Shown here: piece by piece, positions 1,657-35,531 of the stretch
How positions within the stretch are numbered: position 1 is the stretch's first letter
How the letters are laid out: every line of letters begins with the position of its first letter
From: a virus
IMG/VR virus record: IMGVR_UViG_3300047300_000373
Coordinates: 1 to 36,385 of that record
Length of the DNA: 36,385 bases
Direction: 5' to 3' (one strand)
Notes under the pieces: model-generated
Told to the model about the DNA's origin: nothing
What the model saw: only the letters and a program-made list of their open reading frames with translations
Databases searched by the model: none
Program-made: the position numbers and the translations under genes

Positions 1657-2046
1657 ATGGCAAGTGAAAATTTTGTATTACAAAGAGTAACATCTAGTCC
1701 AGGTCGCGGATCAACTACTTGTTGGAGATGGCGTTGGGTAGGAGTAGAAGAAGGCGAAGTGCTGGAAACTACCACAGACAGCACAATGCGTAATTGGGTC
1801 ACTAAAGGATGGAAAGCACTCAGTGAAGATCCGCGTCCATGGGGTGTTTACACAAACATACATGCAAGTGGTCGCAAAACAAATCAAGGTGTGCAGGTTG
1901 CAAATGCAGACCATCGTGCAGTAATTGAACATCGCTTTGATGATCAAGATGCCGCAAAGCAAGCAGTTGATTGGATCAAGAAGTCTCTAAAACCCAAATC
2001 AGACAACACTAACTTTGACAATTTGTTTTACGGGGATGATGAATGA
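1657..2046 (+). CDS. Hypothetical protein, 129 aa
   Basis: ATG at 1657 behind GAAAGGAACTGAAAA. The protein starts with a Trp/Arg-rich stretch (C-W-R-W-R-W-V around residues 22-28) and ends with an Asp-rich tail. I do not recognise the family. It is the first gene after the dual promoter, and its stop overlaps the ATG of the glycosyltransferase gene (ATGA at 2043-2046), so translation is likely coupled and it may serve the same surface-modification pathway. No membrane segment or signal peptide is seen. Confidence 0.7.
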   Translation: MASENFVLQRVTSSPGRGSTTCWRWRWVGVEEGEVLETTTDSTMRNWVTKGWKALSEDPRPWGVYTNIHASGRKTNQGVQVANADHRAVIEHRFDDQDAAKQAVDWIKKSLKPKSDNTNFDNLFYGDDE

Positions 2047-3698
2047 GATTTCACATATTTGGATTACCACACACAAAAACAAACCAAGACTATACCGCTT
2101 GTGCTTACACAGCCAAAGTCCTAAAGTTTGGTAAGATGATGACTGATCGCGGACACACAGTTATACACTATGGACACCCAGACAGCAACTTACAATGCAC
2201 AGAACATGTGGATGTTATCAGTCGTGAAACATATGATCGTGTTTACGGAGCACATGACTTCCACAGCAAGTTCTTTACATACAACACCGGAGATGCGGCC
2301 TACCAAGAGTTTTATCGCCGTGCTATTGAGGAAGTGGGTAAGCGTAAACAGCCAAATGACTTCTTGTTGCCATTTTGGGGTGCGGGGCATAGACCTATTT
2401 GTGATGCACATCCTGATCTAATCACAGTTGAACCTGGTGCAGGTTATGCAGGCGGTTACTGGGCCCGTTGGAAAGTGTTTGAATCGTATGCACTATACCA
2501 CGCTTATTATGGCCTAAAGGCTGTGGGCAACTGTATGCAGGACAACTATGATGTGGTTATCCCAAACTATTTTGATCACGAGGACTTTACCTACAGTCCT
2601 GTCAAAGACGATTACCTGTTGTTTATTGGCCGCATTTACTCGGGCAAAGGACTAGATATTGCCATACAAGTAGCCAAGGAAACAGGCTATAGATTGGTCA
2701 TTGCCGGACAAGGCAGTTTAGCAGAAGCAGGCTATGATCCCATTCCAGATCATGTGGACTACATTGGATATGCAGATCGCGAAACACGCAGAACCATCAT
2801 GAGCCGTGCTCGTGCTACTATTGTGGCAAGTCAATACCTAGAGCCATTTGGTGGCACACAAGTTGAAAGCCTATTCTCAGGCACACCCATTATTACATCA
2901 GACTGGGGCGCCATGAGCGAAGTAAACATTCACGGAGTTACCGGATATCGTTGCCGTAACTTTGAACAATACTGCTGGGCTGTGCGTAACATTGATGCAA
3001 TTGATCCTGCGGTATGTAGAGCATACGCACTTAACAACTATGCTCTAGAAGCCATTGCACCCAAGTATGAAGAGTTCTTTCAACAGATCCTGGATGTGCA
3101 TACCGGCAAGGGTTGGTATCAAACACACAACATTCAGCAAATACACTTGCCCAACCGTTATATTCCTGCTACTGACAATAGTATTGACTTTGCGGAAATT
3201 GATACGGAAGAACTGCCTCAGGCCCAACGACTAGCCACATGGATCAATAGCAACTTAAAACCCCAATCGGTATTGGACATTGGTTGTGGACCCGGCATTT
3301 ACACAGAACAATTACAAGAACTAGGCATTTCGGCACAAGGACTAGATCCAGACGCCCGCACACGCCACACACACTATAGTTTGTTGGACCCAGCCACAAG
3401 ATCAGCGGAACTAGTTATATGCTTAGAAGTGCTGGAACACATTGATCCACAAGACACCATCACAGCACTACAAAACCTGCGTGACCACGCAACCAAGACC
3501 TTAATCTTCACAGCCGCGAGACCCGGACAAGGTGGCACAGGACATATTAATTGCCGTCATCGTGATCAGTGGATTACGTTATTAGAATCAGTGGGATTTG
3601 TTTACGATGCTGAGCAAACTCAAGCAGTTCGGGACTACATGCAGTTGGGTTTACATATGGGATGGTTTGTGAACAATGTGATAGTATGTAAGGTGTAG
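2043..3698 (+). CDS. Glycosyltransferase (GT4-like) fused to SAM methyltransferase
   Basis: 551 residues in two enzymes. The N-terminal part (about 1-365) ends in a GT-B group 1 donor-binding region: F-I-G-R-I-Y-S-G-K-G at 194-203 and E-P-F-G-G-T-Q-V-E-S at 267-276, the E-x7-E type nucleotide-sugar motif. The C-terminal part (about 390-551) is a class I methyltransferase with V-L-D-I-G-C-G-P-G at 410-418, L-E-V-L-E-H-I at 461-467 and a G-H-I-N-C-R-H-R-D-Q-W block at 500-510. No signal peptide, so it is cytoplasmic. A fused pair suggests a sugar that is transferred and then methylated. The acceptor could be host polysaccharide, a virion protein or DNA; the sequence does not say. It shares the operon with the gene at 1657. 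Confidence 0.88.
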   Translation: MRFHIFGLPHTKTNQDYTACAYTAKVLKFGKMMTDRGHTVIHYGHPDSNLQCTEHVDVISRETYDRVYGAHDFHSKFFTYNTGDAAYQEFYRRAIEEVGKRKQPNDFLLPFWGAGHRPICDAHPDLITVEPGAGYAGGYWARWKVFESYALYHAYYGLKAVGNCMQDNYDVVIPNYFDHEDFTYSPVKDDYLLFIGRIYSGKGLDIAIQVAKETGYRLVIAGQGSLAEAGYDPIPDHVDYIGYADRETRRTIMSRARATIVASQYLEPFGGTQVESLFSGTPIITSDWGAMSEVNIHGVTGYRCRNFEQYCWAVRNIDAIDPAVCRAYALNNYALEAIAPKYEEFFQQILDVHTGKGWYQTHNIQQIHLPNRYIPATDNSIDFAEIDTEELPQAQRLATWINSNLKPQSVLDIGCGPGIYTEQLQELGISAQGLDPDARTRHTHYSLLDPATRSAELVICLEVLEHIDPQDTITALQNLRDHATKTLIFTAARPGQGGTGHINCRHRDQWITLLESVGFVYDAEQTQAVRDYMQLGLHMGWFVNNVIVCKV

Positions 3699-4445: not shown

Positions 4446-4472
4446 AAGTCCCCTTGATTGGGGACTTTTTTT
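4446..4472 (+). terminator. Rho-independent terminator
   Basis: AAGTCCCC (4446-4453) and GGGGACTT (4460-4467) form a perfect 8-bp stem with a 6-base loop TTGATT, followed directly by a run of T to 4472. It ends the operon that contains the glycosyltransferase and insulates the sigma70-driven cassette downstream. Confidence 0.92.
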
Positions 4473-4499
4473 GACTGTTGTTTTTATGCAACACGCTAT

Positions 4500-5347: not shown

Positions 5348-5404
5348 CAAGACTTTACATGCAGTCTTGGGAAAACAGCACTACACAGGGTAGTGCTTTT
5401 TTTT
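5348..5404 (+). terminator. Double hairpin with rho-independent terminator
   Basis: A first hairpin pairs CAAGACT (5348-5354) with AGTCTTG (5363-5369). The second pairs AGCACTAC (5377-5384) with GTAGTGCT (5390-5397) around ACAGG and runs into eight T (5397-5404). It closes the cassette that starts at 4500. The next gene begins only 18 bases after the T-run. Confidence 0.9.
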
Positions 5405-5422
5405 GGATAGAAAGGAACATAA

Positions 5423-7592: not shown

Positions 7593-7898
7593 ATGAAAAA
7601 TGATCCACGCTTCAGTCAAGAAGTTAAAATCGCTAAAGACAAGGCCGCAAGTTGGTCATGCACTAATCTACACCATGTAGATAATGTAAACCAAGCACAA
7701 GGTCCACGCACTGGTAATCACGAAAGCCAAGGCAAACGCAATGAGTTCAAGGCCGAAAAAGCCAGCCGTGCTCCATTGGCCAAGGTTATTCAAGATGCTT
7801 ATGCCAAACGCCAACATGAGTATCAAGATTTTGAATACACCAATGGTGGTAGCATCATGGACACGGTTAACGAAGGTCCTCGTCGCAAGCGTAAATAA
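7593..7898 (+). CDS. Hypothetical basic hydrophilic protein
   Basis: 101 residues, ATG at 7593 after AAAGGAAAACGAA. Highly hydrophilic, rich in Lys, Arg, Gln and Asn, ending in E-G-P-R-R-K-R-K. No domain recognised. Its final codons and stop contain a GTAAATA late promoter core (7892-7897), so the end of this gene carries the promoter for the structured leader and the packaging genes. Confidence 0.68.
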   Translation: MKNDPRFSQEVKIAKDKAASWSCTNLHHVDNVNQAQGPRTGNHESQGKRNEFKAEKASRAPLAKVIQDAYAKRQHEYQDFEYTNGGSIMDTVNEGPRRKRK

Positions 7899-7903
7899 TA
7901 TTA
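7890..7903 (+). promoter_or_regulatory. T4-type late promoter-like motif before the structured leader
   Basis: TAAATA at 7892-7897 overlapping the stop codon, followed by five bases and A7903 as predicted start. It is placed at the upstream edge of the only 200-base gene-free stretch in this part of the genome. Confidence 0.5.
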
Positions 7904-8101
7904 TCTAATGCTTGTGTCAAAAGTATAGATAAACGGTTAAGGAGTTGTCCGTAAACAACTCCAACCAATTACCATAAGTATTCTTGTCCGGTGAGTTAAC
8001 AGCACAGACAAGGATGCAATTTGTAGGTTTTTGCTGTTTCTCTACAAACATAGTAAACAGCCCAATTGTCCACTGGACACTTATTTGAAAAGGAAAATGA
8101 A
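7903..8101 (+). promoter_or_regulatory. Structured leader RNA with H-type pseudoknot
   Basis: The 199 bases before the ATG at 8102 contain a chain of strong complementary segments. Hairpin 1: GGTT (7935-7938) plus GGAGTTGT (7941-7948) pair with ACAACTCC (7955-7962) plus AACC (7963-7966), with a two-base bulge. Hairpin 2: CTTGTC and GTG (7983-7988, 7991-7993) pair with CAC and GACAAG (8003-8005, 8007-8012). Pseudoknot: TTTGTAG (8020-8026) pairs with CTACAAA (8042-8048), and GCTGTTT in its loop (8033-8039) pairs with AAACAGC (8055-8061). A palindrome TGTCCA-C-TGGACA (8067-8079) follows, then AAAAGGA (8088-8094). The hairpin 2 loop (AACAGC, 7998-8003) can compete for the same GCTGTT. A regulatory leader, a processed small RNA or a packaging site are all possible. 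Confidence 0.7.
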
Positions 8102-8902
8102 ATGAATAAGAAAACACAAAACAAATCACCATGGGATGACTCAATTGACACAGAAGAAACTGTTGAGGCCGCGCCCGAAGTAACTAAAGAAACCACTAAG
8201 CCAGTTAAGGCCGCTAGAAAGACCGAAATGGAACCTATCATGGAACCAATGTTCGACTTGGAAGGCTTGATGACCGACTTCCCAACAGCCAAAGAACTAG
8301 AACAGTTTGTATATGATCGCACTGGCATTGTATTAAACTTGAAAGGCCGCTCTAACAAGTTCAAGTATCAGACTGCTATGGATGTGTTGAATGGCGCTGA
8401 ACCAGATCCAAGTCTAATTGGCAATGAAAACCCTTACCTAAGCAAAGCAGACCTAGTGCCTGTGGATCCATTGAAAACTGAATTCCCTCGTGACCCTAGC
8501 ATTGCAAACTTTGGTCCCGAAGTTAACATCTTTGACACCAACTTATTCCCGCACCCAGATCCAGAACTAAAAGCACAAAGTCAGAACTGTCAGGTAACAT
8601 TCCGCAAGTATGCCAATGGCGCTATTACCTACGAGATCCTGGGTCCTATCACCCAACGAGCAGTTGGTGAGCGTATCAACAAATATGGTCAGCGTGTGCC
8701 AGAAAAGTTTGTGTGGGTTGATCCACGCACAGGCGAACAAGTTATTGTTCGCGGCGATGGTTCATTAACTCCAATGGGCACCAAGATTCGTGCCTTCATG
8801 CGCCGTCAGCGTATGAATAACTCAAACATGTGGGATGTGTGGGTTGACCGTGACTTCATTGTTAAAGATGAATTGATCAGCGATAACCCATGGGCAGTCT
8901 AA
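8102..8902 (+). CDS. Conserved packaging-region protein, 266 aa
   Basis: ATG at 8102 follows AAAAGGAAAATGA; a TTG at 8066 in the same frame falls in a stem of the leader and is rejected as start. The N-terminal 45 residues are acidic and Lys-rich, probably disordered. The rest is globular with R-K-Y-A-N-G-A-I-T-Y-E-I-L-G-P near residue 160 and a basic stretch (R-A-F-M-R-R-Q-R-M-N-N) near 235. I do not recognise the family. Its position directly before the presumed small and large terminase genes, on the transcript with the structured leader, suggests a packaging or head function. Confidence 0.72.
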   Translation: MNKKTQNKSPWDDSIDTEETVEAAPEVTKETTKPVKAARKTEMEPIMEPMFDLEGLMTDFPTAKELEQFVYDRTGIVLNLKGRSNKFKYQTAMDVLNGAEPDPSLIGNENPYLSKADLVPVDPLKTEFPRDPSIANFGPEVNIFDTNLFPHPDPELKAQSQNCQVTFRKYANGAITYEILGPITQRAVGERINKYGQRVPEKFVWVDPRTGEQVIVRGDGSLTPMGTKIRAFMRRQRMNNSNMWDVWVDRDFIVKDELISDNPWAV

Positions 8903-21800: not shown

Positions 21801-21830
21801 AAATTGCAATAAATAATAATATTGCAATTT
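21801..21830 (+). repeat. Perfect 11-bp AT-rich inverted repeat
   Basis: AAATTGCAATA (21801-21811) and TATTGCAATTT (21820-21830) are exact reverse complements around an 8-base loop, in the 62-base gap between two tail genes. The T-run after the stem is only three bases, so it is a poor terminator. A TAAATA late-promoter core lies inside it. Confidence 0.85.
21808..21821 (+). promoter_or_regulatory. T4-type late promoter-like motif inside an inverted repeat
   Basis: CAATAAATAATAATA: TAAATA at 21810-21815 with predicted start A21821, ATG at 21851. The core sits in the loop side of the 11-bp inverted repeat. Confidence 0.45.
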
Positions 21831-35454: not shown

Positions 35455-35468
35455 TTCAATTCCTTTGC

Positions 35469-35482
35469 TATAGTTATTTACC
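35469..35482 (-). promoter_or_regulatory. T4-type late promoter-like motif, minus strand
   Basis: Read on the minus strand: GGTAAATAACTATA, with TAAATA at 35480-35475 and predicted start at 35469, before the ATG at 35454. The core TAAATAACTATA equals that at 16079 and 1622, showing that the motif is used on both strands. Confidence 0.6.
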
Positions 35483-35498
35483 TATATTGTTAATTTAT

Positions 35499-35512
35499 GC
35501 TAAATAATATAG
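35499..35512 (+). promoter_or_regulatory. T4-type late promoter-like motif before the HNH gene
   Basis: GCTAAATAATATAG: TAAATA at 35501-35506, predicted start G35512, ATG at 35532 with AAGGAAATGCA between. Divergent from the minus-strand promoter 20 bases away. Confidence 0.5.
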
Positions 35513-35531
35513 AGAAATACAAGGAAATGCA

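Follow-up and report, generated by a model that had tools for sequence, protein, structure and literature searches.

The gap at 7899-8101 of the IMG/VR virus record IMGVR_UViG_3300047300_000373 raises the question of what purpose a densely structured stretch immediately ahead of phage packaging genes might serve. We analysed the entire record of 36,385 bases (hereafter the window), which encodes portal and capsid genes as well as a TerL whose protein sequence matches the TerL of P22/LUZ24-related phages. The gap has a 101-aa gene on its 5' side and a 266-aa gene (8102-8902) on its 3' side, the latter being the first of a cluster that continues with an 89-aa gene and TerL; the features of the gap described below and this 266-aa gene all lie on the + strand. 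Two scans with the 8102 protein yielded 91 distinct leaders from relatives. Across these loci the 8102 gene is kept in 91/91, the 89-aa gene in 88/91, TerL in 83/91 and the 101-aa gene in 74/91. A search with the 7593 protein returned L002 as the sole match. No relative of the 8102 protein was found among bacterial and archaeal genome contigs, while phage records contained one distant relative, MW202484.

At the upstream edge of the gap, a putative phage promoter motif (TAAATA-atat-TAT, 7892-7904) overlaps the stop codon of the preceding gene, with which its TAAATA core (7892-7897) shares bases. The motif is also present in L002. Over the whole window, TAAATAN4TAT has 9 copies on the + strand, where 0.22 would be expected, and none on the - strand; 5/9 copies are located no more than 70 nt from a gene start. 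A sequence-only reading of this DNA had proposed a late promoter here; position and enrichment speak for a promoter-like motif, and the copy at 7892 is probably a promoter, albeit a putative one. Folding of 7903-8101 gives -54.8 kcal/mol compared with -38.0 ± 4.4 kcal/mol for shuffles (z -3.8), and this excess stability is mostly due to 7903-7970, which reaches z -5.3 when folded alone. Both hairpins named in the sequence-only reading (7903-7930 and 7978-8017) are recovered by fold prediction. The H-type pseudoknot (8020-8026/8042-8048 and 8033-8039/8055-8061) and the palindrome at 8067-8079 that it described are likewise present in the sequence, and its overall picture holds, namely that the packaging genes are preceded by a leader that is structured, is probably transcribed and contains an H-type pseudoknot. 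The gap is not the sole one of 200 nt in this genome, as had been stated, given that 1450-1656 spans 207 nt.

That second gap, located before the gene at 1657, has features of its own: a ~62-nt unit (GATACTAAACTACAACTACTAAACTATACCC...) is tandemly duplicated, almost unchanged, at 1449-1574, and is followed by a TTGACA-16-TATAAT promoter-like site containing TAAATA. Elsewhere in the window, a 30-nt palindrome with 11-bp arms (21801-21830) holds a TAAATA promoter-like motif mid-way and lies 20 nt before a gene start. Back-to-back TAAATA motifs, at 35480 on the - strand and 35501 on the + strand, occur within 35455-35531, with a leftward gene group on one side and a rightward HNH endonuclease gene on the other, resembling a divergent promoter pair.

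Inspection of the relatives reveals a leader anatomy common to most of them. In 76 of the 91 leaders the start codon is preceded, at a distance of 16-40 nt, by the end of a strong stem whose sequence differs between leaders; the linker in between has a median length of 27 nt and an A+T content of 74%. A Shine-Dalgarno sequence, AAGGA (8090-8094 in the window) or a near variant, is similarly placed in nearly all relatives. The loop is complementary to the bases immediately preceding the stem (AAGG..CCTT, AGGG..CCCT, AAGT..ACTT, GGC..GCC, AACGC..GCGTT, GCAGT..ACTGC, ACAG..CTGT and ACACT..AGTGT), and this flank-loop complementarity in combination with the stem amounts to an H-type pseudoknot. The layout of the knot is S1, a short L1 beginning with UU, S2, S1', an L3 with an A at its end, and S2'. 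In the main group, the UU-starting L1 faces near-invariant UGU/ACA pairs of S2, which suggests that L1 may form triples with U-A pairs of S2. In relatives the element lies just 16-40 nt ahead of the start codon, so that the free-standing small RNA entertained by the sequence-only reading is unnecessary.

The reality of this knot was assessed in several ways. With stems picked blind to S1, flank-loop complementarity amounted to 7.66 as compared with 5.03 ± 0.38 when loops were swapped between loci, a value reached in 0/2000 swaps. Covariation was evaluated on 20 leaders whose loops are 5 nt long, aligned with MAFFT, where 91.4% of cells in both helices are paired (70.6% when shuffled) and both-side changes number 54 against 15.7 shuffled, or 10 against 2.6 for S1 alone; since the sequences are related rather than independent, such shuffle counts overstate significance and are not probabilities. 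When three hand-picked leaders (L010, L034 and L226) were added, the counts became 64 versus 18.9, with S1 alone at 14 versus 3.5, and the 10 sequences of the window's own clade gave 25 versus 6.4. In all slid controls the pairing signal collapses. An unguided pseudoknot scan of each locus places the leader knot top in 45/91 cases where ~2 would be expected, some of the loci being near-duplicates. Among imperfect core pairs, G-U outnumbers A-C by 13 to 3, which favours a sense-strand RNA over DNA or antisense. On the strength of these comparisons, the leader pseudoknot is very probably a real RNA element conserved in this phage group. In agreement with the earlier remark that no known riboswitch class was recognised, neither the window nor 20 related loci reached an Rfam gathering threshold, and Rfam covariance models at E up to 10 gave chance-level matches only. 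Very probably, this is an RNA control element that had not been catalogued before.

Not all relatives have the knot, as indicated by a more distant clade (L050-L081) that has a plain hairpin only at the leader position, and by the MW202484 record, where the 8102-type gene is present and the leader gap is absent, suggesting that some phages can do without the element. The leaders of L072 and L073 (2910-3000 in each) contain two tandem hairpins of different sequence before the homologous gene; tandem leader elements therefore also occur elsewhere in the family. A variant with a long L3 (19-50 nt) is seen in L028, L036, L220, L238 and L249, most with an S2 near GCCACCAG/CTGGTGGC, and S1 pairs again (CTACACC/GGTGTAG, TACGCTG/CAGCGTA, TCACAG/CTGTGA), although the knot fit of these leaders was sought post hoc and constitutes weaker evidence.

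In the window, the conserved knot corresponds to PK1 (7933-7962), the second-best pseudoknot of the window with a stacking energy of -23.1 kcal/mol. It comprises S1 at 7933-7936/7949-7952 (ACGG/CCGT), L1 at 7937-7940, S2 at 7941-7948/7955-7962 (GGAGTTGT/ACAACTCC) and L3 at 7953-7954. Immediately upstream, hairpin 1 of the same module (ATCTaATGCTTgtgtcaaaAGTATAGAT, 7903-7930) appears in both the MFE and the centroid fold, and its motif TAATGCTTGTGTCA is common to L003 and L203 and in part to L002. The complete module (7903-7962) aligns to L002, L003 and L203, where S1 reads ACAG/CTGT, a compensatory change, and the S2 stems differ. A covariation check on homologues of the 8102 gene, as the sequence-only reading had advised, does find covarying helices; these belong to PK1, which is supported by relatives and was absent from that reading, and not to the knot it had described.

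The latter knot, PK2 (8020-8061), occurs in the window only. It consists of S1 (8020-8026/8042-8048), L1 (8027-8032, GTTTTT), S2 (8033-8039/8055-8061), L2 (8040-8041) and L3 (8049-8054), with a stacking energy of -21.3 kcal/mol and the same topology as the knots of relatives. In terms of plain secondary structure, 8016-8066 alone is unexceptional (z -1.1). Pseudoknots of 7+7 bp are expected 0.09 times per 36 kb under a first-order Markov null and three were found on the + strand, indicating the null is too lenient. PK2 is part of the ~115 nt following PK1 that is absent from L002 and L003 and was found in no relative. This segment also contains hairpin 1' (7978-8017; predicted fold, z -3.1), for which no homologous insert was found, and the small palindrome TGTCCactGGACA (8067-8079), likewise confined to the window and possibly due to chance. 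Exact-pattern scans of viral_contigs for the window-specific segment gave 0 matches, and a looser pseudoknot pattern gave at least 119 chance matches, among which the fourth strand held in the window alone. We nevertheless consider PK2 a plausible knot, with the odds moderately in its favour. Its L1 (GUUUUU) faces the U-A-rich end of S2 (UUU/AAA), an arrangement that would allow U.A-U triples. The stretch CATAAGTATTCTTGT (7973-7987), at the 5' arm of hairpin 1', is a near match to arms of hairpin 1 in other relatives (CATAAGTATTATTGT in L207, CATAAGTATT in L203). On the basis of position, topology and this one short match, we infer that 7978-8061 may be a second, tandem hairpin-plus-knot module beside the ribosome site, arisen via insertion or duplication. 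GCTGTT is indeed complementary to both 7998-8003 and 8055-8061; the two-state switch built on this double complementarity in the sequence-only reading concerns one genome, lacks a homologue and is unsupported.

What might such a leader do? The reading we favour, at a probability of roughly 45%, is that of a cis-acting leader RNA that sets how strongly the head gene of the packaging operon is translated (or how stable its 5' end is). Transcription would start near 7903 from the TAAATA-type promoter, and the packaging-gene mRNA would have the gap as its 5' leader, with a cis-acting H-type pseudoknot that a large group of uncultured podophages has in common. Shape would be the feature by which the knot near the 5' end is recognised, and its partner would be either the ribosome or a phage protein, perhaps a packaging protein such as the 8102 product. 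Recognition would tune ribosome loading on the downstream A+U-rich region, in effect a translational operator at the head of the packaging operon, and a stable 5'-end knot would also slow mRNA decay. In the window, two tandem hairpin-plus-knot modules would be involved, the conserved one at 7903-7962 and the extra one at 7978-8061 near the ribosome-binding site. The operator reading is suggested by the leader position beside an A+U-rich ribosome site, by retention of shape over sequence and by the location at the head of the packaging cluster. Against it, PK1 is 139 nt away from the start codon at 8102, and no RNA-binding fold is recognised in the candidate binder, the 8102 product, which is an acidic protein overall. 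A structure model of this protein, derived from 68 sequences (pLDDT 81), gave no clear fold match beyond its own family with Foldseek, VIA-align or BFVD, and a family search with the product gave no match; the nearest fold match is a phage protein with 37% identity, itself probably a relative.

The closest known parallel is the translational operator of T4/RB69 gene 32, in which a 5' pseudoknot of ~28 nt precedes an A+U-rich ribosome site that is unstructured (PMC535899, PMC3014915). As in the T4/T2/RB69 gene 32 leader, the phage mRNA leader described here has an H-type knot of ~28-30 nt, upstream of the Shine-Dalgarno sequence and before an A+U-rich, presumably open ribosome-binding region. 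Gene 32 encodes a ssDNA-binding protein that binds this operator and represses translation; the gene here belongs to a packaging cluster, and its product is not recognisable as a single-strand binding protein and matches no solved fold clearly. The stem sequences, moreover, vary widely among relatives, and the phage group is a different one. We infer that the leader element may work like the T4 gene 32 pseudoknot operators while standing outside that class. The STAXI motif also consists of tandem pseudoknot repeats, with frequent UUCG tetraloops, found near ssDNA-binding, topoisomerase and antirestriction genes (PMC2864571). The pseudoknots of the window are similarly tandem; however, relatives are mostly single-knot and there is no Rfam match. 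In the E. coli rpsO (S15) leader, a pseudoknot serves as translational operator of its own downstream gene (PMC3014915), akin to the role proposed here, although for a host ribosomal-protein gene. The autogenous T4 gene 43 operator is a leader hairpin with a conserved loop sequence (PMC3014915); it resembles the leader of the hairpin-only clade and, unlike the knot clade, has no pseudoknot.

The main rival to an operator is a 5'-end stabiliser, whereby knot or hairpin binds no regulator and merely shields the long late transcript against 5'-dependent decay. We regard this as somewhat unlikely. In the knotless clade a strong hairpin starts few bases from TAAATA (TAAATAC|AAGAGAGGC.. in L077) and would be 5'-terminal, and the free variation of stem sequence fits a mere physical block. 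However, a plain hairpin would suffice for that purpose, yet the knot clade keeps S1, the UU-starting L1 and the A of L3, and many of its members are without TAAATA just upstream.

Certain leader RNA structures, such as HK022 put, act on RNA polymerase and promote terminator read-through in cis. By analogy, the leader RNA could load onto RNA polymerase so that the long late operon is read through, as an antitermination or processivity signal. This would fit the one or two leader elements that directly follow a putative promoter ahead of the packaging and structural genes, and the tandem arrangement seen both in the window and in L072/L073. Such a signal would not need to sit at a short and constant distance from the start codon, and we consider it improbable.

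We give very little credence to a DNA packaging site (pac/cos) by the terminase genes, which the sequence-only reading had also raised. The gap does lie two genes upstream of a TerL of P22/LUZ24-related type, but its sequence diverges strongly even where gene products are 77-86% identical, while pseudoknot complementarity is kept; S1 would be unnecessary for DNA recognition, and pseudoknot-type covariation with the 13 to 3 excess of G-U over A-C fits poorly with a DNA site. Equally remote is a metabolite riboswitch or intrinsic terminator: compact H-type knots with an A-containing L3 are known among riboswitches and a stem ahead of a gene could recall a terminator, yet strong conservation of a ligand-pocket sequence is lacking, the knot does not include the Shine-Dalgarno, Rfam gives no match, and PK1 is followed by AACCAATT and not by the T-tract of the genome's own terminator-like hairpins. 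A terminator scan gave a weak + match at 8067-8079, at chance level. Two strong terminator-like hairpins with long T-tracts are located in the early part of the window, at 4446-4475 and 5377-5405.

Returning to the operator reading, we tentatively raise a broader and rather doubtful possibility, namely a new phage family of shape-recognised pseudoknot operators through which translation of the packaging operon responds to how much of a packaging protein is present, with the window as a two-knot cooperative version. If true, stem sequences turn over freely in this family while shape is retained, and a second knot module was gained in the window. The relatives offer dozens of natural compensatory variants of a phage leader pseudoknot that is widespread before the packaging genes of unisolated phages, and they make the structure, the possible triple-helix contacts and recognition by a regulator directly testable. 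The element would also mark where an otherwise uncharacterised late operon is controlled. Among the other genes of the window, a single 551-aa protein (2043-3698) fuses glycosyltransferase and methyltransferase domains.
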